Part shown: positions 5,195 through 51,145 of the stretch, piece after piece | Layout: every line of letters begins with the position of its first letter | Position numbering within the stretch: position 1 is the first letter of the stretch | Source of the DNA: Sporichthya polymorpha DSM 43042 | GTDB lineage: Bacteria; Actinomycetota; Actinomycetes; Sporichthyales; Sporichthyaceae | Length of the DNA: 64,000 nt | Assembly: GCF_000384115.1 (NCBI RefSeq) | Contig: NZ_KB913029.1 | Coordinates: 5,307,057 to 5,371,056, forward strand | Direction: 5' to 3' | Translations under genes and position numbers: made by a program | The notes under the pieces: model-generated | Databases searched by the model: none | The model's input: the letters and a program-made list of their open reading frames with translations, nothing else | Told to the model about the DNA's origin: nothing

Positions 5195-6111
5195 CCGGCC
5201 CGATCCAGCCGCGCCCCCAGGTCCGCGGCCAGGACCGCGTCGTGGAGCGCCGCGGCGGCGAGGGTCGACGGTCGCTGATGGCCGGTGACCAGGCCGACCG
5301 CAGGCGTGTGCGGCGTCGGCCGGATCGGGATGAGCCGCAGCCCGTCCGGGACCCCGTAGCTCTGCGCCCACGGGTGCGCGACGACGCTCGACCACCGCCG
5401 CGCGCGCAGGTGGGCGTACAGCGACTCGACGGTGTCCGCCTCGACGACGACGTCGGCACGCACCCCGGCCTCGGCCAGCGCCGCGTCGAGGATCCGCCGG
5501 TTCTGCATGGTCGTGGACAACGCGCACATCGGGACGCCGGCCAGGTCGGCCCAGATAAGGGCCTCACGATCGGCCAGCGGACCGGAGTCCGGAGTGAGCA
5601 GCAGGTAACGCTCCCGGTAGAGCGGGAGGACACGGGTGTGCGCGTCGGGTTCCTCCGGCAGGTAGGTCAGCCCGGCGTCGAGCTCGAACTCGGCAAGTCC
5701 CCGGACGATCTCGGCGGAGGACAGGACCTCGATCCGCATCCGCGCACGCGGATGACGGTCCGTCAGAGCGACGGTGATGGCGGGCAGGATCGGCACGGCG
5801 GTGGGGATCGCCCCGACGCGGACGGTCGCCGTCAGACCGTGCTGCAGCCGGTCCAGGTCGAGCAGCAGCGCGTCCCGCTCGGCGAGGATCCGGTGTGCCC
5901 AGCCGAGGACCTGACCGCCCTCCTCGGTCAGACCGCCGTAGCGCTGACCGCGGCGCACGATCTGCACGCCGAGTTGCTGCTCGAGCTTGCGCACGGCAGC
6001 CGACAACGCCGGCTGGCTGACGTGGCACGCGGCCGCTGCGCGGCCGAAGTGCTGCTCGCGGTGCAGCGCCACCAGATACTCCAGCTGGCGCAGCAGGATG
6101 TCGCCGGACAC
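5191..6111 (-). CDS. LysR-family transcriptional regulator (divergent from fds operon)
   Basis: A 306-residue LysR regulator. The N-terminal winged helix-turn-helix spans about residues 5-64 (LRQLEYLVAL, ACHVSQPALSAAVRKLE), followed by a periplasmic-binding-like effector domain from about 90 to 300. The GTG start at 6111 gives the normal family start just before the LRQLEYLV segment. It is divergent from fdsG with a 123-base intergenic region containing a T-N11-A palindrome, so it probably activates the formate dehydrogenase operon and represses itself. FdsR-type regulators occupy this position in other fds clusters. The effector is presumably formate or a related signal, which is inference. 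Confidence 0.9.
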   Translation of the reverse strand: MSGDILLRQLEYLVALHREQHFGRAAAACHVSQPALSAAVRKLEQQLGVQIVRRGQRYGGLTEEGGQVLGWAHRILAERDALLLDLDRLQHGLTATVRVGAIPTAVPILPAITVALTDRHPRARMRIEVLSSAEIVRGLAEFELDAGLTYLPEEPDAHTRVLPLYRERYLLLTPDSGPLADREALIWADLAGVPMCALSTTMQNRRILDAALAEAGVRADVVVEADTVESLYAHLRARRWSSVVAHPWAQSYGVPDGLRLIPIRPTPHTPAVGLVTGHQRPSTLAAAALHDAVLAADLGARLDRAG

Positions 6112-6140
6112 CCGACGAGGATAGCCCGCTGACGTGCACT

Positions 6141-6157
6141 GATAAACAGCGTCTATC
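6141..6157. promoter_or_regulatory. Candidate LysR operator between lysR and fdsG
   Basis: The sequence GATA-AACAGCGTC-TATC is an inverted repeat with 4-base arms and contains the T-N11-A pattern of LysR binding sites. It is about 30 bases upstream of the lysR start and 78 bases upstream of fdsG. The position fits joint autorepression and activation, but the arms are short and no binding evidence is available. Confidence 0.4.
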
Positions 6158-6234
6158 GCCGGATCGACACGTTGAGCTTGCTGCACCGCTCTGCGGTCGC
6201 GCAGTGTGGAACACCCGACCCGGCAGGACCGCCC

Positions 6235-6711
6235 ATGACCTTCCGCGCCCCGGCACCACCGCATGCCGACCGCATCCGCGCGATCGCCGCGGACCACGCC
6301 ACCGAACGCGGGCCCCTGCTCGTCATCCTCCACGCCGTCCAGGCGGAGTTCGGCTTTCTCGACCCGGACCTCGTCCCGGTCCTGGCCGACGAGCTCAACC
6401 TCTCGGTCGCCGAGGTGCACGGCGTGGTGTCCTTCTACCGGGACCTCCGGACCACTCCGCCCGGCCGCACCACCCTGAGGATCTGCCGGGCCGAGGCCTG
6501 CCAGGCGGTCGGCGCGGACGCCCTGGTCGAGCACGCGAAGCAGCGGCTCGGTGTCGGCTTCGGCGAGACCACGGCGGACGGCGGCGTCACCCTCGACGAG
6601 GTCTTCTGCCTCGGCAACTGCGCGCTCGGCCCCTCGATCCAGGTCGACGGCAAGCTCCAGGGCCGGGTCAGCCGGGACCGGCTCGACGCGCTCCTGGGGG
6701 ACCTCCGATGA
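6235..6711 (+). CDS. fdsG: NAD-dependent formate dehydrogenase gamma subunit (FdsG, NuoE-like)
   Basis: A 158-residue thioredoxin-like [2Fe-2S] protein. The cluster ligands are C-x4-C in CRAEAC (near residue 84) and C-x3-C in CLGNC (near 125). It passes electrons between the flavoprotein FdsB and the diaphorase core. The ATG at 6235 is chosen because the family N-terminus (HADRIRAIAADHA) follows it directly; an earlier in-frame start at 6172 adds unconserved residues. Its stop overlaps the fdsB start as ATGA, so the operon is translationally coupled. Confidence 0.93.
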   Translation: MTFRAPAPPHADRIRAIAADHATERGPLLVILHAVQAEFGFLDPDLVPVLADELNLSVAEVHGVVSFYRDLRTTPPGRTTLRICRAEACQAVGADALVEHAKQRLGVGFGETTADGGVTLDEVFCLGNCALGPSIQVDGKLQGRVSRDRLDALLGDLR

Positions 6712-8249
6712 CGGGTTCCGCGCTCTCCCCCTCGAACCACACCGTCTACGTCCCCCGCGACTCCGCCGCGGTCTCCGTGGGCGCCGACGCGGTGGCCGAG
6801 CGCATCACCGCTCTCGCCCCGCCCGGGACCCGCGTCGTGCGGACGGGGTCGCGCGGCATGCTCTGGCTCGAGCCCCTGGTCGAGGTCGACACCCCGGACG
6901 GGCGGGTCGGGTTCGGTCCCGTCTCCCCCGAGGACGTCGACGGCCTGCTCGCCGGCGGGATGCTGGCGGGCATCGGCGGCAACGGCGCGGCCCTCGGGCT
7001 CGTCGAGGAGCTGCCCTGGATGAAGGCGCAGCAGCGCATCACCTTCGCCCGCGTCGGCGTCGTGGACCCGCGCTCCGCGCCGGACTACCTCGCGCACGGC
7101 GGCCTGGCCGGCCTGCAGCGCGCCCTGTCGATGACCCCGGCCGAGGTCGTCGCCGAGGTGACCGACTCGGGCCTGCGCGGCCGTGGTGGCGCCGGCTTCC
7201 CGACCGGCATCAAGTGGAAGACCGTCCTGGAGCAGCCGCCCGGCCTGAAGTTCGTCTGCGCCAACGCCGACGAGGGCGACTCCGGCACCTTCGCCGACCG
7301 CATGCTGATGGAGGGCGACCCGTTCACCCTCATCGAGGGCATGACGATCGCCGCCTACGCGGTCGGCGCGAGCGAGGGCTACATCTACTGCCGCTCCGAG
7401 TACCCCGACGCCGTCGAGACCCTGCGGGCCGCGATCACGGAGGCGTACGCCGCGAACTGGCTCGGCCCGAACATCCTCGGCTCCGGGCTGACCTTCGACC
7501 TCTCCGTCCGCGTGGGCGCCGGCGCCTACATCTGCGGCGAGGAGACCTCGATGCTCGAGAGCCTCGAGGGCAAGCGCGGGCTGGTCCGCCCGAAGCCGCC
7601 GATCCCTGCGATCTCCGGCCTGTTCGGCCGCCCGACGGTCATCAACAACGTCCTCACGCTCGGCTCGGTCCCGGGGATCCTGGCCGACGGCGCCGCGGCC
7701 TATGCGGCACTCGGCGTCGGCCGGTCCCGCGGCACGCAGGTCTTCCAACTCGCCGGGAACGTCGCCCGCGGTGGCGTCTTCGAGACGGCGTTCGGTCTGA
7801 AGCTCGGCGAACTCGTCGAGACCTTCGGCGGGGGCACCGCCTCCGGGCGTCCGGTTCGGGCCGTGCAGGTCGGCGGTCCGCTCGGCGCCTACCTGCCGGT
7901 GGGCCAGTTCGACCTGCCGCTGGACTACGAGGCCTTCGCCGCCGCGAGCGCGATGGTGGGCCACGGCGGGGTCGTCGTCTTCGACGACACCGTCGACATG
8001 GCGAAGATGGCCCGGTTCGCCATGGAGTTCTGCGCCGAGGAGTCCTGCGGGCGCTGCACCCCGTGCCGGGTCGGCGCGGTGCGCGGCGTCGAGACGATCG
8101 ACCGCATCCGGGCCGGCGACCGCACCCAACTCGCCCTGCTCGAGGACCTCTGCGAGCTGATGACCGACGGCTCCCTGTGCGCGATGGGCGGGCTGACGCC
8201 CCTGCCGGTGCGCAGCGCCGTCCGACACTTCCGGGAGGACTTCGCATGA
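6708..8249 (+). CDS. fdsB: NAD-dependent formate dehydrogenase beta subunit (FdsB, NuoF-like)
   Basis: A 513-residue flavoprotein that binds FMN, NAD and one [4Fe-4S] cluster and reduces NAD+ with electrons from formate. GRGGAGFPTG, the nucleotide-binding glycine-rich loop, is at about residues 157-166, and NADEGDSGTF, the FMN region, is near 187. The cluster cysteines are in SCGRCTPC (near 446) with the fourth in SLCAMGG near 490. The roughly 130-residue N-terminal part precedes the NuoF core as in other FdsB proteins. Both ends overlap their neighbours by four bases. Confidence 0.94.
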   Translation: MTGSALSPSNHTVYVPRDSAAVSVGADAVAERITALAPPGTRVVRTGSRGMLWLEPLVEVDTPDGRVGFGPVSPEDVDGLLAGGMLAGIGGNGAALGLVEELPWMKAQQRITFARVGVVDPRSAPDYLAHGGLAGLQRALSMTPAEVVAEVTDSGLRGRGGAGFPTGIKWKTVLEQPPGLKFVCANADEGDSGTFADRMLMEGDPFTLIEGMTIAAYAVGASEGYIYCRSEYPDAVETLRAAITEAYAANWLGPNILGSGLTFDLSVRVGAGAYICGEETSMLESLEGKRGLVRPKPPIPAISGLFGRPTVINNVLTLGSVPGILADGAAAYAALGVGRSRGTQVFQLAGNVARGGVFETAFGLKLGELVETFGGGTASGRPVRAVQVGGPLGAYLPVGQFDLPLDYEAFAAASAMVGHGGVVVFDDTVDMAKMARFAMEFCAEESCGRCTPCRVGAVRGVETIDRIRAGDRTQLALLEDLCELMTDGSLCAMGGLTPLPVRSAVRHFREDFA

Positions 8250-11029: not shown

Positions 11030-11241
11030 GCGAGGGAACGATCCGGCCCGAGGTGCGTCTGGCCGGCGAGATCGCCGACCAGTTCCGCCACAAGCCGCAG
11101 GACGTGGCCGCCGAGGCCATCGCCAGTCACATCCGCATGTTCTGGGACCCGCGCATGCGCACGACCCTGCTCGCCGCCGAGTCCGCGGGCGAGGTCGACG
11201 ACTCGCTCGTGCGCGCCGCCGTCGAGCGCCTGCGAGCCTGA
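11026..11241 (+). CDS. fdsD: Formate dehydrogenase delta subunit (FdsD)
   Basis: A 71-residue FdsD protein with a GTG start overlapping the fdsA stop. It has VRLAGEIADQF at the N-terminus, HIRMFWDPRM in the middle and a charged AGEVDD segment, the family pattern. FdsD is a small accessory subunit that supports assembly or stability of the FdsGBA complex. It ends in TGATG shared with fdhD, placing it in the same coupled operon. A close paralogue lies at 4982-5194. Confidence 0.88.
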   Translation: MSEGTIRPEVRLAGEIADQFRHKPQDVAAEAIASHIRMFWDPRMRTTLLAAESAGEVDDSLVRAAVERLRA

Positions 11242-12071
11242 TGGGCCGGGTCACCGGTCGACGTTCGGTCACCCGAGTCACGCCGACCGGGCGGACGTCG
11301 ACCATCGACAGCCTCGCGGCCGAGGAGCCGATGGAGCTGCGGGTCGGCGGTCGCTCGCTCGCGGTCACGATGCGCACCCCCGGCGCGGACGTCGAACTCG
11401 CGCACGGCTTCCTGCTCAGTGAGGGCGTGATCACCAAGGTCGACGACGTCGTGACGGCCCGGTACTGCGACGGGGTCGACGACAAGGGCCGCAACACCTA
11501 CAACGTCCTCGACGTGGCGCTCGCGGACGGAGTGCCAGTCCCGGGCCCCGGGGTGGAGCGCAACTTCTACACGACGTCCTCGTGCGGAGTCTGCGGGAAG
11601 GCGTCGCTCGACGCCGTCCGCACCAGGACCGCGTTCTCGCCGGCCGGTGACCCGGTCCGGGTCGACGTGGCGACCCTGCTGGCACTGCCGGACCGGCTGC
11701 GCGAGGCGCAGCGCATCTTCGACGCCACCGGCGGTCTGCACGCCGCGGGTCTGTTCACCGCCGACGGGGAGCTGCTCGTCGCCCGCGAGGACGTCGGGCG
11801 CCACAACGCGGTCGACAAGGTGCTGGGCTGGGCGTTGCTGAACGGCCTCGTGCCCGCGGCCGGGTCGGTCCTGATGCTCTCGGGCCGGGCCTCCTTCGAG
11901 TTGGTGCAGAAGGCCGCGATGGCCGGGGTTCCCGTCGTCGCGGCGATCTCGGCCCCCTCGACGCTGGCCGTCGAGCTCGCCGAGGACAGCGGCATCACGC
12001 TCGTCGGCTTCGTGCGGGGCGATCACATGACGGTCTATGCAGGTGCCGAGCGGGTCAGCGGCGGCGAGTGA
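11241..12071 (+). CDS. fdhD: Formate dehydrogenase sulfurtransferase FdhD
   Basis: A 276-residue FdhD protein, which moves sulfur from a cysteine desulfurase to the Mo/W bis-MGD cofactor so that the formate dehydrogenase becomes active. The conserved SSCGVCGKAS motif with the two sulfur-carrying cysteines is near residues 112-121. LAREDVGRHNAVDK-type sequence (reading AREDVGRHNAVDKV) is near 180, and SGRASFELVQKA near 214. Its start overlaps the fdsD stop. It is the last gene of the fds operon. Confidence 0.95.
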   Translation: MGRVTGRRSVTRVTPTGRTSTIDSLAAEEPMELRVGGRSLAVTMRTPGADVELAHGFLLSEGVITKVDDVVTARYCDGVDDKGRNTYNVLDVALADGVPVPGPGVERNFYTTSSCGVCGKASLDAVRTRTAFSPAGDPVRVDVATLLALPDRLREAQRIFDATGGLHAAGLFTADGELLVAREDVGRHNAVDKVLGWALLNGLVPAAGSVLMLSGRASFELVQKAAMAGVPVVAAISAPSTLAVELAEDSGITLVGFVRGDHMTVYAGAERVSGGE

Positions 12072-43163: not shown

Positions 43164-44303
43164 TCAGGGGATGTCCTCGCGCTGGTCGTCACCGTAGACA
43201 CCGCGGCCGAGATAGGCCTCCGAGTCGATTCGGCCGAGCTGCTCGCGGAAGACGTACCGGAAGATCACCTTGAGGGCGGCGGTGACGGGGAGGGCGGTGA
43301 GGGCGCCGATCGCGCCGCCGACCGCCGCGCCGACGAGGACGGCGATGAACACCGCGATCGGGGAGAGGTCGACGGCCTTGGAGAACACCCGCGGCGCGAG
43401 GAAGTAGTTCTCGAACTGCTGGTAGGCCACGAGGATCACGAACACCGCGAGCGCGAGGTGCCAGCTCTCCGTCAGCGCGACCAGGGTGCAGACGACCGCG
43501 CCGATCGTCGCGCCCACCTGCGGGATCGCGCTGAAGAACGCCACCGCCAGGCCGAGCACCATCGAGTACGGGACCCCGAGGACGCTGAGGACGACGCCGG
43601 CGAAGATGCCCGCGGTCAGCGAGACGACCAACTGGCCGGTGACGTACCCGCCGATCCGGTCGAGGGAGCTGTCGAGGACCTCGACCTTCTCCGGGTCCCG
43701 CAGGGCCCGCGCCGCGAAGGAGTGCAGCCGCGGCATCGCCATCATGAAGTAGATCGTCAGCGCGAAGACCGAGAAGATGCCGAACAGCGCGGTGACGATG
43801 CCGCCGAGGATCCCGTAGACCGTGCCCAGCGAGGCGGCGAGGATCTCCGGGATCTTGTCGACCTGCTCCTGGATCTTGCGCTGGACCTCGGGGTCGTCGA
43901 GCTTCACGCCGAGGATCTCCCGGCCCTCGCCGCGTTCGTTCAGGTCGTCGAGCAGCGACGGGATGTTCGCGACGAACTCGCTCGCCTGCTCGACCGCGGG
44001 GACGACCATCAGCCAGATGATCAGCGTGATCGCCGTCAGCACCCCGATGACGAGGATCAGCACCGCTTCCCCGCGCCGCAGGCCGCGCGCCTCCATCCGG
44101 CGGATCATCGGTTCGAGGCCGGCCGCGAAGAAGAAGCCGAGGAAGATCGACGCCATCACCGACCGCACCTCGGAGATCAGCAGGGCGAGCGCGATCACGC
44201 CGAGGACCGTGGCGGTGGCCTTGGCGATGTACATCATCGGCGGCCAACTGGTGCCGCCCGCGACCGGGATCGTCTCCGGTGCGCTGCCCTCGGGTGCGGT
44301 CAT
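43164..44303 (-). CDS. AI-2E family transporter (PerM-like permease)
   Basis: A 379-residue membrane protein with seven to eight helices. Typical family parts are LGFFFAAGLEPMIRRMEARGLRR near 55-78, a periplasmic-like loop (about 110-170), YVTGQLVVSLTAGIFAG near 217 and PQVGATIGAVVCTLVAL near 258. Conserved FENYFLAPRVFSKAVDLSP lies near 300. The family includes AI-2 exporters, Na+/H+ antiporters and permeases of unknown substrate, so no substrate is assigned. It is followed on the same strand by none, and preceded by a DUF3817 gene with a 12-base gap. Confidence 0.9.
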   Translation of the reverse strand: MTAPEGSAPETIPVAGGTSWPPMMYIAKATATVLGVIALALLISEVRSVMASIFLGFFFAAGLEPMIRRMEARGLRRGEAVLILVIGVLTAITLIIWLMVVPAVEQASEFVANIPSLLDDLNERGEGREILGVKLDDPEVQRKIQEQVDKIPEILAASLGTVYGILGGIVTALFGIFSVFALTIYFMMAMPRLHSFAARALRDPEKVEVLDSSLDRIGGYVTGQLVVSLTAGIFAGVVLSVLGVPYSMVLGLAVAFFSAIPQVGATIGAVVCTLVALTESWHLALAVFVILVAYQQFENYFLAPRVFSKAVDLSPIAVFIAVLVGAAVGGAIGALTALPVTAALKVIFRYVFREQLGRIDSEAYLGRGVYGDDQREDIP

Positions 44304-44315
44304 GTCGACCCGACG

Positions 44316-44645
44316 CTAGAGCGCGGCGGCCCCGGATCCGTCGAGGCGCGCGGGAGTCTCCTCCGCGAGGCGGGCGATCCGCCGCTCGACGAGAAACGTC
44401 ATGCCCGGGACGACGCCCGCGAGGATCATCTCCGCGAGCCGGCGCAGCGGCCATCGGTACCGGCGGAAGAAGTCGAACGCCAGCACCAGGTACAGGATGT
44501 AGAAGTAGCCGTGGGCGAAGACGACCCACTTCAGCGACTTGTTGCCGAACCCGTAGGCCATCACCATCTCGACGCACACGAGCAGCAGCAGGACGCCGAC
44601 GATGTACGCCGCCACCTGGTAGCGGGTGGCCGGAGTGTTCCTCAC
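44316..44645 (-). CDS. DUF3817 small membrane protein
   Basis: A 109-residue protein with three hydrophobic helices. The family motif VFAHGYFYILYLVLAFDFFRRYRW is spread around residues 43-65, and a VPGMTFLVERR segment is near 80. DUF3817 proteins are common in actinobacteria and of unknown role. The GTG start overlaps the stop of the upstream membrane protein as GTGA, so the two are coupled. Confidence 0.87.
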   Translation of the reverse strand: MRNTPATRYQVAAYIVGVLLLLVCVEMVMAYGFGNKSLKWVVFAHGYFYILYLVLAFDFFRRYRWPLRRLAEMILAGVVPGMTFLVERRIARLAEETPARLDGSGAAAL

Positions 44646-45010
44646 GCGTTCTCGTCCTTCTCGTGCAACCGGGCCAGCATCGCGTTGTACGCGGCAAGCT
44701 CGGGGTCCTCGTCGGGGTCGACGGTCACGACCGGGGTCCGCCGTACCGGCGCGGGGGCGGGCGGCTCGGGCTCCGACGGGCCGCCCTCGCGGGCGACACG
44801 GAGACCGTCCCGGCACAGCCAGGCCCAGACGCCGAGACCGAAGATCCCGATCGCGGGCCACTGCAGGGCGTAGCCCAGGCTCCGCCCGCTGCCGTCCTTC
44901 GCGACCGTGAACTGCCACCAGGCGGCCCAGGTGCAGCCCGCGACCACCACGACGGCGAAGACGTGCAACGCCACCCAGCGGGGTTGAAGCAGGACCGACA
45001 CGGCTTCCAC
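44642..45010 (-). CDS. Conserved actinobacterial membrane protein of unknown function
   Basis: A 122-residue protein with two transmembrane helices (about residues 13-32 and 48-66). The conserved-looking core WVALHVFAVVVVAGC with WWQF and GRSLGYALQWP resembles a small actinobacterial membrane family that lies next to DUF3817 genes. The C-terminal half is polar and ends DPELAAYNAMLARLH. No function is known. The start is GTG. Confidence 0.75.
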   Translation of the reverse strand: MEAVSVLLQPRWVALHVFAVVVVAGCTWAAWWQFTVAKDGSGRSLGYALQWPAIGIFGLGVWAWLCRDGLRVAREGGPSEPEPPAPAPVRRTPVVTVDPDEDPELAAYNAMLARLHEKDENA

Positions 45011-45032
45011 GGTACCTGCGCCCCGTCCGGCC

Positions 45033-46751
45033 TCAGCCGGGCACGGGCAGGGCCTTGCTCACAGGGGTGAGCGCCCCGCCCTCGAACCAGGTCGTGGTCA
45101 CGCCGCTGTGATCCATGGACCCACCGGCCCCGTCCCCCATCGGCATGATCTCGAAGCTCACGGTCGCCGCGTAGAGGAACAGCTCCCGCGGCGGCAGCCG
45201 CTGGTCCAGCGCGGCGAGAAAGGCCAGGTACCCGGCCGCGGTCGCGCTCTCGTCCGGGCCGACCCGGCGCAGGGCGGTGATGTAGGCCTGCGCCTCCGGG
45301 CTCGCGGGGTCGAACGGCAGCACGGCCAGCGGTGAGCCGCCGGTGGCGGCCACCAGCGAGGACTGGACCAGCCAGGGGGCCAGGTAGACGCCGTAGAGCG
45401 GCGGGGCTGCCTTCCGCTGCGCCTCCAGCGCGGCCTGGGAGACCTCCCACCCGGCGATCGCGAGGACGGCGTCGACCTTGCCCGTCCGGATCGCGATCTT
45501 CGCGCTCTTGGCCTGGGCGCGGACGACGCGCTCGGCGGCGACGCCGCGCGGGGAGGTGTCGGTGATCAGCCGCAGGCTCTTCACCCCGCGCCCCTGCAGG
45601 GACGCGACGAGCGCCCGCAGGGCGGCCGTGTCGGGCGGCGAGAGGGCCTCGGCCGGGCAGGCCGCCAAGGGGAGCTTCGAGCCGGCGAGGGCGGCGCCCA
45701 TGGCCGCGGCGGCGCACTCCGCGCCGTCCGCGCCGGACAGGCCGTCCTGTGCCGGGCCGGAGCCGGTGTCGACGATCTGCGCGGCCACCTGGCGACCCTG
45801 GCGGATCTCGAGCAGCGAACGGCCCGGCGGCAGCGAGACCTCGGCCCACTGGCCGGGCGCGCCCGGCCGCGGCGCGGCCCGGTAGCGCCGGCCGTCGACC
45901 ACGACGTCGGTGAGCCGGTCGGTCATCAGGTGGACGAGGTTGAGCCCCGGCTGCTGCGGGGCGATCGCGAGGCCGGTCATGGCCTCGTCGATGTCGAGCG
46001 CACGCACCAGCGGCGCGCCCGGGGCGGGCGGCGGGCCGGGCGGCGGCAAGCTGGTGAGCACCACTCCGGCGACGATCGCGGCGCACAGGACGCCGAGCTC
46101 GAGGCGGGCCAGCACTCCCCCGCCCTGCGGGCCGGTGGCGTCCGACCCCGCGACCCCGCCGCGCCGCGCCCGCAGCAGGTAGCGGACGCCGAGGCCGAGG
46201 GCCCCGGCCGCGACCAGCAGCACGACCTTGATCACGACGACCGTGCCGAAGTCGGTGATCGTGATGCCGTCGAGGGTGACGTCGTAGTTGCGCGCGGACA
46301 GGACACCGGTGACCGCGGCGAGCGCACCGGCGCCGACCGCGACCGGGCCGAGGCGCCGGACGAGCGCGGCCCGGGTGCCGGGCTCGGCGGTCGCCGACGC
46401 CAGCGCGGCGCCGGCCCACACGGTGGCGACCGCGACGTGACCCAGCATCAGGACCGCGTCGCCGACGGAGTCGGTCAGCGCGCTCCACGAGAGCCAGACG
46501 ACGGAGGCGGCGCCGGCGGCGGCGGAGACGGCGGCCGGCCCGCGGAGAATCGCGGCCGCCGTGGCGGCCAGCAGCGGGACGAGCAGGAGGTAGCGAAGAG
46601 TCTCCAGGTCGCCGACGGCGCCGACGAGGGCAGCGAGCGCACCGGCCGCGGCGGCGGTGGCAAGCAGCCGACGGGCGGTCTCGGTCGGGCGGCCGGCGAG
46701 GGGCCGGAGCAATGCGACCCCGGCCAGCAGCGCCGTGGCCGCGAGGGCCAC
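45033..46751 (-). CDS. CopD-like membrane domain fused to a periplasmic-binding-like domain
   Basis: From the first standard start, GTG at 46751, the protein has 572 residues. Residues 1-250 carry about seven helices of CopD type (VLMLGHVAVATVWAGAALAS near 100, LGVLCAAIVAGVVL near 225). Residues 300-555 resemble a type I periplasmic binding protein of the leucine-binding kind (KSLRLITDTSPRG, VYLAPWLVQSSLVA, SPEAQAYITALRRVGP). A Met/His-containing end (GGSMDHSG) may bind metal. Upstream in frame, to 46880, a good signal peptide is encoded (RKVAAVSIL to AFAHGGGE) but only ATT or ATA could start it. The real gene probably begins there. Confidence 0.72.
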   Translation of the reverse strand: MALAATALLAGVALLRPLAGRPTETARRLLATAAAAGALAALVGAVGDLETLRYLLLVPLLAATAAAILRGPAAVSAAAGAASVVWLSWSALTDSVGDAVLMLGHVAVATVWAGAALASATAEPGTRAALVRRLGPVAVGAGALAAVTGVLSARNYDVTLDGITITDFGTVVVIKVVLLVAAGALGLGVRYLLRARRGGVAGSDATGPQGGGVLARLELGVLCAAIVAGVVLTSLPPPGPPPAPGAPLVRALDIDEAMTGLAIAPQQPGLNLVHLMTDRLTDVVVDGRRYRAAPRPGAPGQWAEVSLPPGRSLLEIRQGRQVAAQIVDTGSGPAQDGLSGADGAECAAAAMGAALAGSKLPLAACPAEALSPPDTAALRALVASLQGRGVKSLRLITDTSPRGVAAERVVRAQAKSAKIAIRTGKVDAVLAIAGWEVSQAALEAQRKAAPPLYGVYLAPWLVQSSLVAATGGSPLAVLPFDPASPEAQAYITALRRVGPDESATAAGYLAFLAALDQRLPPRELFLYAATVSFEIMPMGDGAGGSMDHSGVTTTWFEGGALTPVSKALPVPG

Positions 46752-46903
46752 CGCGCGGGCGACGGCGTCGGCGGCCGAGAGGTCGGCGGCGGACTCTCCC
46801 CCGCCGTGGGCGAACGCGGGCGCCGCCGCCCCGATCTGACCGAAAGTCAGGATCGAGACGGCGGCGACCTTACGAGCAATGTTGCGTGTTATTGCGAGTC
46901 CCT

Positions 46904-48847
46904 CTATCGAACGTCTTCGTCAGCGACCACGAAGAGCATCGAGTGCGGCTTCGCGTCACCGAAGTCGCCGTGCGGCCACGACGTCCGGTTGAAGCTGACG
47001 CAGCTCGTGCCGTCGTACTCGTCGACGAACCGGTCATCGAGGACGAGCTTGCCCTTCTTGATGTCCAGGATGCAGAGCTTGTGGTTGCCGTCCGTGTTGG
47101 TGCGGGCCACGAAGTAGTTCGAGAAGGCGATCCGCTTGACCTTGTCGGTCTCGCGGTAGTACCCGTCCTTGCCGAGCTCGAAGTTGTCCATCGCGCCCCA
47201 GTGCGGGCCACCCGAGGTGTTGTCCTGCACGCGGAAGGCATCCGAGAGCGTCGGGCAGTCGGCCTCGTCGCCGCCCTTGTTGACCTCGTGGATCGTGTCG
47301 ATGCTGCACTTGGTGTTCTTGCCGGCCTTGAGCAGCTTCTGGATGTCCAGCATGTAGACCATCTTGGCCGAGCCGGTGTCGAACGGGCTCGTCGCACCCG
47401 GGCCACGACCGATCACGGCGTGGAACAGGTACTTGTCGTCCGGGCTGGTCTGGATCCATCCGGCGCCGGTGCAGCCGCCACCCTCGGTGACCTGCTCGTC
47501 GAGCGAGGCCGAGGCGGTGGTGACGTCGAAGACCTCACGCCACACGGGCTTCGGGTCGGTGATGTCCGGGGTGTAGTAGATGACACCGCCGCACATCGAC
47601 GAGGCGAACGCGCCCTTGTTCTTGGGCGTGTTGGTGACGGTGACCTCCATGATGCCCCGCGGCTCCTCGTGCGAGGGGTTGCGGTGCACGCGGGGGCCGT
47701 CGGGCATCTGCGAGACCGAGACCAGCTTGGCGTTGTCGCGGTCGGAGATGTCCCAGATGCGGACCGTGTCACGGAAGACGTTCGGGCCGGGCGGACGAAC
47801 CGGGTCGAGCACGATGTTGCGCGGCTCGGCGTAGTCCGAGGCGATCAGGCGGTTCAGGTCCTCACGGGCCTGGATGCCGTGCGGGTTGGCGCAGGTGGCC
47901 TGCGGCAGCACCGGGTAGTTGATGCAGCGGACCGGGTCTTCGGAGTTCGGGAGCGCGGCCGGGACCTCGGAGAGGGTCTTGCCGTCCGGACCGATGCGGA
48001 CCAGGGAGCCCGGCGAACCGCCGAAGCCGTTGGAGACCCGGACCTCACCGTTGGTGTAGGTGCAGGGGCCGGGGACGTCCGCGCCACCCATGTAGGTGCC
48101 GTAGGCGGTGCCGTCCTTCAGCGTCCAGTACGCGTCGGGGATCGAACCGCAGGGGGTGTCGGTCGGCAGGTTGACGCCCTTGATCTCGATCTTCGGCAGC
48201 GCCTTGACGTCGAAGACGTACGTGATGTCGCTGTAGAGACCACCGGCGTAGATCGAGTCGCCCTTGTGCCACAGGTACTGCATGTGGTGCGGCTCGTTCT
48301 CCACGACCGGAGCGGTCGTGACGGTGTTGACGACCTTGCCGTAGGTCGGCGAGCCCTTGGTGGCGTCGACGACGGCCAGGAAGTCCGGCCCGACCGCGTT
48401 GTCGCGGACGGTTTCCGGCAGCGTGACCGGGTTGATCGCCGGGCGGCTCGCGTAGAGACCCGCCGAGTTGTTGTCGGCCGCGTTCCAGTCACCGGCCCAG
48501 ACCACGAGGTATTCGTGGCGGATCTTGCCGTCCTTGGTGACGATCTTCTGGGCGTCCAGGTCGGTGTTGGTGCCGTCGAGCACCGAGTCGACCAGGTTGC
48601 GCTTGGCCTGCGTGATCGCCGGGCTGTCCTGGACCAGGTGGTTCGTGGCAGTGAAGATCTCACCGTTCGTCGCCGTGAACTTCGACGTGTAGGTGAGGAC
48701 CTTGTCGGTGGCGTCCGCCGCCGGCGAGTTGAAGCCGACGAAGCCCGCCGCGATCAGCGTCGGGACCGCGGCGACCGCGGCGAGACGCCGGCCCGGTCGG
48801 GGCAGCTTGCGACTGCGCCCCGGCGGAGCCTGGGTGGGGGTGGTCAT
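46904..48847 (-). CDS. Secreted beta-propeller protein resembling methanethiol oxidase / SBP56
   Basis: A 647-residue exported protein. The signal peptide covers about residues 1-46, with an Arg-rich start and possible Tat character (GRRLAAVAAVPTLIAAG). The rest shows propeller-blade patterns (FLAVVDATKGSPTYGKVV, TYVFDVKALPKIEI, VRIWDISDRDNAKLV). Residues NEPHHMQY near 185 and WPHGDFGDAKPHSM near the end place histidines like the metal ligands of selenium-binding protein 56, whose bacterial members are copper methanethiol oxidases. Identity is moderate by eye, so the enzyme activity is a hypothesis. A copper-type gene follows, and a cysteine-containing leader peptide lies two genes upstream. 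Confidence 0.6.
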   Translation of the reverse strand: MTTPTQAPPGRSRKLPRPGRRLAAVAAVPTLIAAGFVGFNSPAADATDKVLTYTSKFTATNGEIFTATNHLVQDSPAITQAKRNLVDSVLDGTNTDLDAQKIVTKDGKIRHEYLVVWAGDWNAADNNSAGLYASRPAINPVTLPETVRDNAVGPDFLAVVDATKGSPTYGKVVNTVTTAPVVENEPHHMQYLWHKGDSIYAGGLYSDITYVFDVKALPKIEIKGVNLPTDTPCGSIPDAYWTLKDGTAYGTYMGGADVPGPCTYTNGEVRVSNGFGGSPGSLVRIGPDGKTLSEVPAALPNSEDPVRCINYPVLPQATCANPHGIQAREDLNRLIASDYAEPRNIVLDPVRPPGPNVFRDTVRIWDISDRDNAKLVSVSQMPDGPRVHRNPSHEEPRGIMEVTVTNTPKNKGAFASSMCGGVIYYTPDITDPKPVWREVFDVTTASASLDEQVTEGGGCTGAGWIQTSPDDKYLFHAVIGRGPGATSPFDTGSAKMVYMLDIQKLLKAGKNTKCSIDTIHEVNKGGDEADCPTLSDAFRVQDNTSGGPHWGAMDNFELGKDGYYRETDKVKRIAFSNYFVARTNTDGNHKLCILDIKKGKLVLDDRFVDEYDGTSCVSFNRTSWPHGDFGDAKPHSMLFVVADEDVR

Positions 48848-48918
48848 CTGGTTTCGCTCCAGAGGTTGTAGGAAAGTGATCGGGGGTCAGATACGCGTGC
48901 TCGTCGTTGAACAGAGCG

Positions 48919-49980
48919 TCATCGGCCCCCTGCCTCGAGCACCTCGGCAGCTGTATCCGGCAGGCTGGACACCGTCACCGTGATCTCGTTGCTGTACTTC
49001 GCGCCGGACCGACCCCCCGAGGTCGTGTCCGCCCACTTCACCGGCATGGCCAGCGACGGCGCGTACCACCACCGCCGCGTGCGCTCACCGGATTCCGAAC
49101 CCGTGAAGGTGGTCCGGGTGTCGAGAACGAAGACGGGGACGCGGATGCCCGAAATCGTCAGGGTGTCCACCCCCGTCACCGTCGAGGTGTACTTCTCGGT
49201 CCGGTCGGCGTCGCCGCCGGTGCCGGACCACGTCTCGCCGACCCTGAGCACCGCGGGAACGCAGCGCTGGGCCGGGGAGAAGGAGATGTCGGAGCCCTGA
49301 CGGACCCCGCTGCACGTCACGGTCGCGGACTCGAACGTGAGGTCGACGGCGCCACCGGCGTAGCGGTAGATGTGCCGCTCGTCGTGCTTGCCGGCCTCAC
49401 CGGGGAAGTACCGGACGTCGAAGTTGTACGACCCAGCCGGTTCGTTGCGCGCCGGAGCGACGACGAGTTGCGACTGCTTCGGCAGGTCCCGACCACAGAA
49501 CGAGAAGGGACCGAAGGTCACCTTCTCCGAGCCGGAGACGCTCAGACCATAGGTCCCCGCGATCGGCTCGGTGCGCGGCAGCGGCACGGCGTTCGCCCGC
49601 GCGCCCCGGGCACCGGAATTGGCACGGCCCGCGGGCGCCGCCGTGCTCCCGGTCGAAGCCGGCGCCTTGGCCTTCCCCGTCGCGGCGGGCGCCGGTGTGG
49701 CGGCACCGGCGGACCCGTCGGGGGAACCGGTCGCGGATGCCGGGCCGGGCACCGCCGGGGCCGAGGCCGCCGGGGTCTCCGGGCCGGCGTCCGCGACCGG
49801 CGGCAGCGAGGCATCAGCCCCGAAGACCTCGCCACCGCGGTCGTAGACGATCTCCCCGCTCCGCGTCCACGCGCCGTACGCGAGGAAACCCCCGGTCGGC
49901 AGCGCCACCACGAGCAGAGCCACGAGGGCGAGCAGCACCGGCCGGCGCCGCCACCGCGGCGCAGGAGTGGGTTCGCCCAT
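48919..49980 (-). CDS. Membrane-anchored secreted protein of unknown function
   Basis: A 353-residue protein not recognised. An N-terminal anchor helix (VLLALVALLVVALPTGGFLAYG) is near residues 15-36. A linker of Ala, Pro and Gly covers about 55-125, and a beta-rich C-terminal domain spans 130-345. The domain has three or four cysteines (FCGRDLP near 146, VTCSGV near 210, RCVPAVL near 225), a YNFDVRYFPGEAGKHDERHIYRY stretch divided by Gly residues, and an RRWWYAPSLAMPVKW end. The ATG at 49980 follows GAGGAAG. It precedes the propeller protein gene by 71 bases, probably in one transcript. Confidence 0.68.
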   Translation of the reverse strand: MGEPTPAPRWRRRPVLLALVALLVVALPTGGFLAYGAWTRSGEIVYDRGGEVFGADASLPPVADAGPETPAASAPAVPGPASATGSPDGSAGAATPAPAATGKAKAPASTGSTAAPAGRANSGARGARANAVPLPRTEPIAGTYGLSVSGSEKVTFGPFSFCGRDLPKQSQLVVAPARNEPAGSYNFDVRYFPGEAGKHDERHIYRYAGGAVDLTFESATVTCSGVRQGSDISFSPAQRCVPAVLRVGETWSGTGGDADRTEKYTSTVTGVDTLTISGIRVPVFVLDTRTTFTGSESGERTRRWWYAPSLAMPVKWADTTSGGRSGAKYSNEITVTVSSLPDTAAEVLEAGGR

Positions 49981-50065
49981 GAAGGCTTCCTCGAGGGGGA
50001 AGGCGCGCCGGTCTGCGCGCACACGCGCAGGCAGCCGGAGCGAGGAGGGGGAGAGTTACGAGCGC

Positions 50066-50112
50066 GGACGCCGGGGGTCGGCGTCCAGGGAGACCGGGCT
50101 CAGGCCGGTCTC
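50066..50112 (-). promoter_or_regulatory. Two hairpins after the leader peptide, possible attenuator
   Basis: Read on the minus strand, GAGACCGG-CCTGAGC-CCGGTCTC (50112-50090, 8-bp stem) overlaps the stop codon of the leader peptide. GGACGCC-GACCCCC-GGCGTCC (50086-50066, 7-bp stem) follows four bases later. A ribosome at the leader stop would disrupt the first hairpin. No U tract follows the second, so a transcriptional terminator is uncertain. Confidence 0.5.
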
Positions 50113-50191
50113 AGGCCAGGTACTGACAGAGGTCGCTGTCCTGCCGCATCAGGTCGACGTGCAGGCGCGCAACCAGGAACGCGCTCGTCAT
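50111..50191 (-). CDS. Cysteine-containing leader peptide (26 residues)
   Basis: A short frame encodes MTSAFLVARLHVDLMRQDSDLCQYLA. The central ARLHVDLMR segment followed by SDLC matches the pattern of short leader peptides that many actinobacteria carry upstream of sulfur-related operons (R-x-H-V-D-L-x-R then a Ser-x-Leu-Cys end). The single Cys codon is five codons before the stop. It lies 131 bases upstream of the anchored-protein gene on the same strand, with two hairpins after it. The likely role is sensing cysteine or sulfur supply through ribosome stalling. There is no strong Shine-Dalgarno sequence. Confidence 0.6.
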   Translation of the reverse strand: MTSAFLVARLHVDLMRQDSDLCQYLA

Positions 50192-50217
50192 GTCTGAGAC
50201 GTTATCAGGCGATTCGG

Positions 50218-50252
50218 ACTATCGCAACTAAGCCGACCAACTCAATGGAGTT
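50218..50252 (-). promoter_or_regulatory. Candidate promoter and operator for the leader-peptide operon
   Basis: On the minus strand, TTGAGT (50245-50240) and GATAGT (50223-50218) are spaced 16 bases, a fair -35/-10 pair ending 26 bases before the leader ATG. The inverted repeat AACTC-AATG-GAGTT (50239-50252) overlaps the -35 box and could be a repressor site. The stretch is clearly richer in A and T than its surroundings. Confidence 0.45.
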
Positions 50253-50323
50253 TAACGGGAAACCGGCCTGACCTGCATGTTCGGACATTAACGGCCCAAC
50301 TCGGCCGGACTTTGTGCGTACAT

Positions 50324-51145
50324 TCACGAGGGAGTGGCGGCCGCGTCGAGGGCGGCGGCCTCCTCCGGGGTGGGGGCCGTGCCGCCCAGGTGGGCCGGCA
50401 GCCACCAGCGGTCGTCGGGACCGGCGGGCGCGACCGGGTACTCGCGCTGGGCGCGGTCGAGCAGCTCCTGCAGCCGACGCCGCAGTTCGACGGTCGCCGC
50501 CTCGGGGTCGTCGCCGCGCTGCGGCGTCAGCGGTTCGCCGATGTAGACGAGGATCGGCACCTTGCGCTGGAGCAGCCGGCGCGGCCGGCCCTTCGTCCAG
50601 AGCCGCTGACCGCCCCACACCGCGACGGGCACGAGCGGCGCCTTGGTGGCCATCGCCATCCGCACCGCGCCGGACTTGATCTCCTTGACGGTGAACGAGC
50701 GGCTGATCGTCGCCTCGGGGAAGACGCCGACGACCTCCCCCGCCTTCAGCGCGCGCAGCGCCTCGCGGAACGAGCCCATGCCCGCCTCGCGATCGACGGG
50801 GATGTGTTTCATGCCGCGCATCAGCGGGCCGGAGATCCGGTGCGTGAAGACGGCTTCCTTCGCCATGAAGCGCGTCAGCCGCTTCGACGGCCGGGCGCCC
50901 CAGCCGGCGAAGATGAAGTCGAGGTAGCTGACGTGGTTGGACGCCAGCACGACGGGACCGGAGCGGGGCACGTGATGCGCGCCGTCGACCGTCACCTTCA
51001 CACCCAACGCGCGGAACCACACGTGGGCGGCGGCGATGACGGGCGGGTACACCCGCTCCGGTCCGTCGTACGCGATCGGCTTCGGCTCCCTGGCCTGCTG
51101 GTTGGCCTGCTGGTTGGCCTGCTGGTTGGCCTTCTGGTCCGCCAT
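50324..51145 (-). CDS. plsC: 1-acyl-sn-glycerol-3-phosphate acyltransferase (PlsC family)
   Basis: A 273-residue membrane-associated acyltransferase that makes phosphatidic acid from lysophosphatidic acid. The catalytic H-x4-D box is NHVSYLD near residue 70, the acyl-acceptor motif FPEATISRS (variant of FPEGTRS) near 142, and VPVAVWGGQ near 172. The N-terminus has three ANQQ repeats caused by a 12-base tandem repeat at about 51097-51136. The FPEAT motif differs from the usual FPEGT. The acyl acceptor could also be another lipid, as several actinobacterial PlsC-like proteins have unknown acceptors. Confidence 0.88.
   Translation of the reverse strand: MADQKANQQANQQANQQAREPKPIAYDGPERVYPPVIAAAHVWFRALGVKVTVDGAHHVPRSGPVVLASNHVSYLDFIFAGWGARPSKRLTRFMAKEAVFTHRISGPLMRGMKHIPVDREAGMGSFREALRALKAGEVVGVFPEATISRSFTVKEIKSGAVRMAMATKAPLVPVAVWGGQRLWTKGRPRRLLQRKVPILVYIGEPLTPQRGDDPEAATVELRRRLQELLDRAQREYPVAPAGPDDRWWLPAHLGGTAPTPEEAAALDAAATPS

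Follow-up and report, generated by a model that had tools for sequence, protein, structure and literature searches.

We describe a putative sulfur-linked operon in a 64,000-nucleotide (nt) stretch of DNA from Sporichthya polymorpha DSM 43042 (contig NZ_KB913029.1, positions 5,307,057 to 5,371,056; the whole stretch is referred to as the window), which lies in a 5.5 Mb genome held on one contig. An earlier sequence-only reading of the window had proposed a possible methanethiol oxidase operon under cysteine-linked attenuation, made up of a leader peptide, an anchored protein, a secreted propeller protein and a CopD-type protein. These four parts were confirmed, and all parts of the locus lie on the minus strand with the transcription order leader, anchored protein, propeller, CopD-like partner, a small protein with one transmembrane (TM) segment and a DUF3817 membrane protein (Table 1). 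The anchored protein does precede the propeller as described, and it is outside the conserved core, with proteins resembling it near 7 of 50 propeller relatives. No Pfam or NCBIfam family matched it at E<=1.

Table 1. Features of the locus, listed 5' to 3' along the minus strand in window coordinates (ORF, open reading frame).
Feature	Position	Strand	Remarks
TAACGT, TANNNT -10-like hexamer	50199..50204	-	7 nt 5' of leader ATG
Leader peptide MTSAFLVARLHVDLMRQDSDLCQYLA	50111..50191	-	26-residue ORF; sole Cys codon TGT
Anchored secreted protein, function unknown, accessory	48919..49980	-	353 residues, one hydrophobic segment
Secreted SBP56-superfamily seven-bladed propeller	46904..48847	-	647 residues, N-terminal hydrophobic segment
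CopD-like partner	45033..46892	-	start uncertain, best candidate ATA at 46892
Small one-TM protein, possible operon tail	44642..45010	-	SURF1_Mycobac end-of-model match, 23.9 bits vs 190
DUF3817 membrane protein	44316..44645	-	PF12823, 79.1 bits; 4-nt overlap with one-TM gene

To place the propeller, sequence profiles, family-wide alignments and a structure model were compared with known families. The only Pfam match of the propeller was SBP56 (PF05694), with 22 bits against a curated cut-off of 34 and over residues 150-190 only. A pattern search of genome contigs returned 50 relatives, all of which we take from their records to be Actinomycetota. Relatives were aligned with the window protein to give a family of 49 members (48 of the 50 relatives and the window; L043, which was partial, and L053, whose reading frame was broken on extraction, were left out). 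PF05694 was matched at E<=0.01 by 47 of the 49 aligned members and no other Pfam family was matched, so that the SBP56-like ancestry proposed for the propeller is supported by a signal that is weak but family-wide. When the family was compared by hhalign with a profile built from 10 SBP56 proteins encoded in other genomes of Actinomycetota, E was 7.4e-7 (91.8%). The propeller was modelled using AlphaFold2 with a predicted local distance difference test (pLDDT) of 90.1 and a predicted template modelling score (pTM) of 0.91. Foldseek ranked 2ECE, the SBP56 of Sulfolobus tokodaii, first with E 3.6e-17 (runner-up 1.2e-11), and VIA aligned the model to 2ECE with Z 31.4 over 375 residues, the longest alignment, with a root-mean-square deviation (rmsd) of 2.8 and 20% identity. 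The family-wide profile similarity together with a fold closest to 2ECE place the propeller in the wider SBP56 superfamily, of which it is a distant member outside the curated SBP56 and MtoX families.

The propeller family was present in 4 of 296 evenly drawn Actinomycetota genomes, the window's own among the 4. Copies on Streptomyces plasmids were annotated as 'hypothetical protein' in six of six records. The window genome holds three copies of the family and no protein over the PF05694 cut-off. One of the two paralogs (L073, C1:774500-784500) is 66% identical to the window copy, has no partner and has a multicopper oxidase gene in its vicinity, at 5571-7070. The other (L074, C1:802500-812500) has a short partner of 383 residues and is flanked by genes that, judged by eye, resemble molybdenum hydroxylase subunits.

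Residues identical in all 49 members included H187, H188, H323, E395, E401, H549, H589 and H635, and H626 was also listed among the invariant or nearly invariant residues. These positions were compared to SBP56 in a joint alignment, using the residue numbering of human SELENBP1 and Hyphomicrobium MtoX given in PMC10362175 and PMC5739008. The local SBP56 rows were mapped to this numbering by our own assignment and, as identity is low, the pairing of individual residues beyond the HH, SE/SD and GGP blocks may be shifted by one position. The invariant His and Glu fell mostly on SBP56 metal-site positions. H187 and H188 fell on the xHHx motif (human H73/H74), which was kept in 49 of 49 members. 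E401 aligned with human E252, and H635 with the C-terminal His (H412 in Hyphomicrobium). H323 adjoins the column of human D189, and H549 is the last residue of a GGPH at the position of GGPQ in SBP56. This placement suggests a putative metal site in which two histidines appear to have been relocated to neighbouring blades. Two Cys pairs were also conserved in the propeller family, perhaps as disulfides. In a remote family member (L098) H323 is replaced by Leu and E401 by Gly with HH and the C-terminal His kept; judged from these residues it is perhaps a non-catalytic branch.

The copper-type membrane partner that had been proposed for the propeller was borne out. The membrane part of this protein matched the whole of the CopD model (PF05425) with 29.9 bits, just below the cut-off of 32.1. 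A relative of the partner gene was found in 48 of 50 loci and was directly downstream in 47 of 50, with its start -10 to +130 nt from the propeller stop. In the exceptions the partner was 1722 nt away (L032), the locus ended near a contig edge (L033) or no partner was present (L031). The partner is built from a signal peptide, seven hydrophobic segments, a beta region, a type I binding-protein-like domain and a His/Met-rich C-terminal tail, with a His at the likely mature N-terminus. The Streptomyces and Nocardioides rows examined had one or two hydrophobic segments in place of the 7-TM part, indicating that the conserved part of the partner is the outer domain. The model of the outer domain (pLDDT 93.1) consisted of the beta region and the type I binding-protein-like part and aligned to 3lkb with Z 15.9 over 204 residues (rmsd 2.8). 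In an alignment of 43 partner outer domains, made up of the window's own and those of 42 of the 47 usable loci, 7 matched Peripla_BP_6 (PF13458). At least two His/Met were present in the tail of 46 of 47 members and closely spaced His were present near the N-terminus of 28 of 47. With these features the partner is a candidate for copper delivery to the propeller.

The start of the 572-residue ORF first listed for the CopD-type protein did not hold up, as the frame extends further upstream to a good signal peptide that no ATG, GTG or TTG precedes. Around 46870..46912 these start codons are lacking ahead of the signal peptide both in the window and in a close relative (L054) with a 96% identical propeller, and the two sequences conserve a GAGGGA with an ATA codon after it. 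This conservation makes it possible that the CopD-like gene uses a rare start codon.

Linkage of the leader to the propeller was assessed by searching for its RLHVDL motif in the relatives' loci. An ORF with RLHVDL (one mismatch or fewer) was found within 700 nt 5' of the propeller in 20 of 48 testable loci as compared to 0 of 1994 control windows from the same loci. Many of these loci belong to related genera and do not count as independent cases. Cys codons at or after RLHVDL in 23 leaders were TGT in 18 cases and TGC in 3, as compared to 6 TGT and 84 TGC in the propeller genes. Both results uphold the cysteine- or sulfur-linked leader that had been proposed. The best match of the window leader was NF042934 ('putative leader peptide') at 20.5 bits, below its cut-off of 27, and the linkage supports a leader of the same kind as the cis_reg_atten leaders of NF042934. 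In 18 of 21 relatives the leader ATG was placed 27 nt 5' of the motif and had an xAxxxT 7 nt ahead of it, a pattern shown by 119 of 2480 ATGs taken from these loci; this looser pattern was chosen post hoc after the sequences had been seen, and a strict TANNNT preceded only 3 of 23 leaders. The fixed place of xAxxxT before the ATG suggests that the leader transcript is leaderless. The leader region folded with a z of -4.33, stronger than all 200 shuffles. With six relatives' loci, the sole Rfam matches at gathering score were to Actino-pnp, in two of the loci and distant from the leader, and one sub-threshold, chance-like match was found in the window.

The RLHVDL leader was also found in front of other genes. 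Exact RLHVDL occurred at 20 sites in seven other genomes and ten of these were credible leaders, preceding SDF symporters (4), cysteine synthase (2), a TauE-type exporter (1), SsuA (1) and the propeller (2). The cysteine synthase (TIGR01136) and the SsuA sulfonate-binding protein (TIGR01728) both scored over cut-off. There were 11 short-frame sites, from which L083 was set aside with the nearest long gene 707 nt off, and a twelfth, L075, was set aside too. RLHVDL leaders with a near-terminal TGT Cys codon were seen in L077, L085, L087, L088, L090, L091, L092 and L094. The leader looks like the mark of a sulfur regulon that extends more widely in Actinomycetota. The genome of the window has exact RLHVDL at two sites, of which the second was rejected as a leader as it lies antisense within a tRNA-synthetase-like ORF. 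The mycobacterial cysteine-responsive short leader ORFs (Canestrari et al. 2020 as cited in PMC9031893) are similar in being short ORFs before sulfur genes that are likely leaderless and have a late Cys codon. They differ in carrying a run of Cys codons, whereas here the RLHVDL peptide is conserved and there is usually one Cys, encoded by TGT. A literature search that covered few subscription papers returned no published description of the RLHVDL leader or of the propeller family.

Genes neighbouring the propeller-partner pair were assessed in the 50 relatives' loci. A YeeE/YedE (PF04143) gene neighboured the pair in 22 of 50 loci; in 20 it shared the strand of the pair and lay 12 to 1195 nt past the partner, and in 2 it was on the opposite strand. 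YeeE/YedE (TsuA) is a thiosulfate uptake protein (PMC11073785), and the accessible part of that paper mentions no propeller partner. Sulfate-assimilation neighbours of the CysH, CysD or sulfite reductase type were found in 8 of 50 loci; some sulfur-gene match was present in 12, from which L007, L014, L049 and L052 were dropped as they had ATP-binding cassette (ABC) transporter parts only. A protein combining metallo-beta-lactamase and rhodanese, and resembling persulfide dioxygenase, was near the pair in 4 loci (L007, L010, L013 and L050). The union of the assimilation and YeeE/persulfide-type counts gave a sulfur gene nearby in 33 of 50 loci; these counts are raw, without a random-neighbourhood control, and many loci come from related genera and are phylogenetically clustered and so are not independent events. 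Neighbour families were scanned in 139 of the 276 genes around the pair, with no more than 3 taken per locus, and 25 of 93 families were listed. Of six Streptomyces plasmid records that matched, five were opened. In three of these the pair was flanked by a phosphoadenosine phosphosulfate (PAPS) reductase gene on one side and a sulfite reductase gene on the other, surrounded by genes for alkanesulfonate transport, CysD, CysC and sirohydrochlorin chelatase, and in a fourth record CysD adjoins the pair. Together with the leader before sulfur genes, these neighbours support the proposed sulfur role more strongly than the evidence first given for it.

On balance we lean towards a sulfur-acquisition operon in which the propeller would be a secreted copper-dependent oxidase of sulfur compounds. 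The cysteine-type leader, the import gene for thiosulfate-like sulfur and the sulfate-assimilation neighbours point to sulfur acquisition, and the exported SBP56-type propeller with its metal-like residue set points to oxidation of small sulfur compounds outside the membrane. In this scheme cysteine shortage would slow decoding of the TGT Cys codon of the leader and the operon would be expressed. The propeller would be exported and then loaded with copper by the partner through its CopD-like membrane part and His/Met-rich tail. It would oxidise a small extracellular sulfur compound, leaving the sulfur in a form that the cell can import or reduce. The released sulfur would be thiosulfate or sulfane sulfur taken up via YeeE where this is present, and sulfide or sulfite otherwise. 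We infer copper as the likely metal, catalysis as the likely activity, and likewise the direction of regulation and the class of substrate.

Several observations weigh against sulfur acquisition by a copper-dependent oxidase. Other propellers aligned to the model in VIA with Z 26-32, as high as 2ECE and over fewer residues, so that the fold alone is no proof of function, and the sequence similarity to SBP56 was strong only in the first blade. No terminator-like site, the hairpin and T-run behind the leader of a classical attenuator, was found in 44200-50600. Among the three paralogs of the window's own genome only the window copy has an exact RLHVDL leader, YeeE is absent from this genome, and no sulfur genes were found around the pair in the fifth plasmid record. 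Features of known methanethiol oxidases (MTOs) were also missing. The HxxH copper motif (human H137/H140), required in human SELENBP1 according to PMC10362175, is lost and the aligned position reads PDAYW (DxxW). In the window propeller SEW is replaced by SDY and SxWDNQF by SNYFVAR, so that the Trp pair, which would be the proposed tryptophan tryptophylquinone (TTQ) pair, is absent; the other printed rows read SDY/SDF and SNYF. The joint alignment showed no counterpart in the propeller to the GGDC cysteine at the C-terminus of cluster 1 MTOs, which is proposed to be catalytic (PMC10936201). SCO1 was absent from the window genome by a search that was positive in 6 of 14 control genomes, and of the window genes covered by the Pfam search none matched SCO1/SenC or MauG, with MauG not searched genome-wide.

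These missing features bear most directly on the identity first proposed for the propeller, a true methanethiol oxidase. Such an enzyme, if diverged, would convert methanethiol to formaldehyde and sulfide or sulfane sulfur, feeding cysteine synthesis. SBP56 ancestry, export, the HH motif and sulfur regulation would all fit, and bacterial MTOs are likewise periplasmic and Cu-dependent (PMC5739008). However, in addition to the losses above, the profile check of the propeller against the MtoX equivalog (NF052453, NCBIfam) resulted in 25.5 bits, far below the cut-off of 650, a cut-off passed by 0 of 149 Actinomycetota genomes. We therefore consider a methanethiol oxidase unlikely. The missing features leave methanethiol possible but not favoured as the substrate, and other thiols, sulfide and sulfane-sulfur compounds are equally open. 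The accompanying suggestion that formaldehyde could lead to formate for a formate dehydrogenase in the window was rejected: an FdhD/NarQ family gene for a formate-dehydrogenase accessory protein was confirmed at 11241..12071, yet this is ~33 kb away and no FdhD was found in the 50 relatives' loci.

The propeller could instead be a non-catalytic secreted binder that passes copper or a sulfur compound to a sensor or uptake-receptor domain in the partner, and this we judge less probable again. The LivK-like outer domain of the partner (the PF13458 and 3lkb matches above) is consistent with such a role, and invariant residues may bind without turnover. The metal-like set of invariant His and Glu would however exceed usual binding needs, the Streptomyces and Nocardioides partners have no 7-TM part, and YeeE already offers an uptake route. 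A copper-handling or resistance pair found in sulfur neighbourhoods by chance, through the link between thiols and copper stress, appears very improbable, as the CopD-like part, the His/Met-rich tail and the multicopper oxidase near one paralog are set against a leader, YeeE and sulfate-assimilation neighbours that are all sulfur-specific, and no copper ATPase or copper regulator family was among the 25 listed of 93 families in the 139 neighbour proteins.

If the operon does serve sulfur acquisition, its parts resemble and depart from known systems in several ways. The propeller shares seven blades, xHHx, the Glu and the C-terminal His with SBP56/MtoX (Hyphomicrobium, Ruegeria) and human SELENBP1, and shares export and a sulfur context with bacterial MtoX. 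Unlike MtoX and SELENBP1, to which it is ~20% identical, it has lost HxxH, the supposed TTQ Trp and the GGDC Cys, carries the two conserved Cys pairs, and has gained the His beside the D189 position and in GGPH. MtoX is accompanied by SCO1 and MauG, whereas the propeller is accompanied by the CopD/binding-protein partner. This partner resembles CopD/PcoD copper proteins in its membrane part and differs from them in the fused beta region and type I binding-protein-like domain, and in the loss of the membrane part in Streptomyces and Nocardioides.

Tentatively, the family may be a new class of secreted copper enzyme in Actinomycetota with an SBP56 fold and a rearranged metal site, loaded by the CopD/binding-protein partner, coupled to YeeE and used for scavenging under the TGT-Cys RLHVDL regulon. 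In the literature located, four features were not found together: an SBP56 propeller with altered ligands, a copper-type partner replacing SCO1/MauG, a leader with a cysteine codon and import of the thiosulfate type. If this is true, a sulfur-acquisition route would be assigned to hypothetical proteins of Actinomycetota, and the family would provide natural variants of the metal site for work on methanethiol oxidases, the chemistry of which is unsettled.

Downstream of the partner, sequences similar to the one-TM and DUF3817 proteins were found in only two of the relatives' loci searched, L004 and L060, both from Sporichthyaceae.

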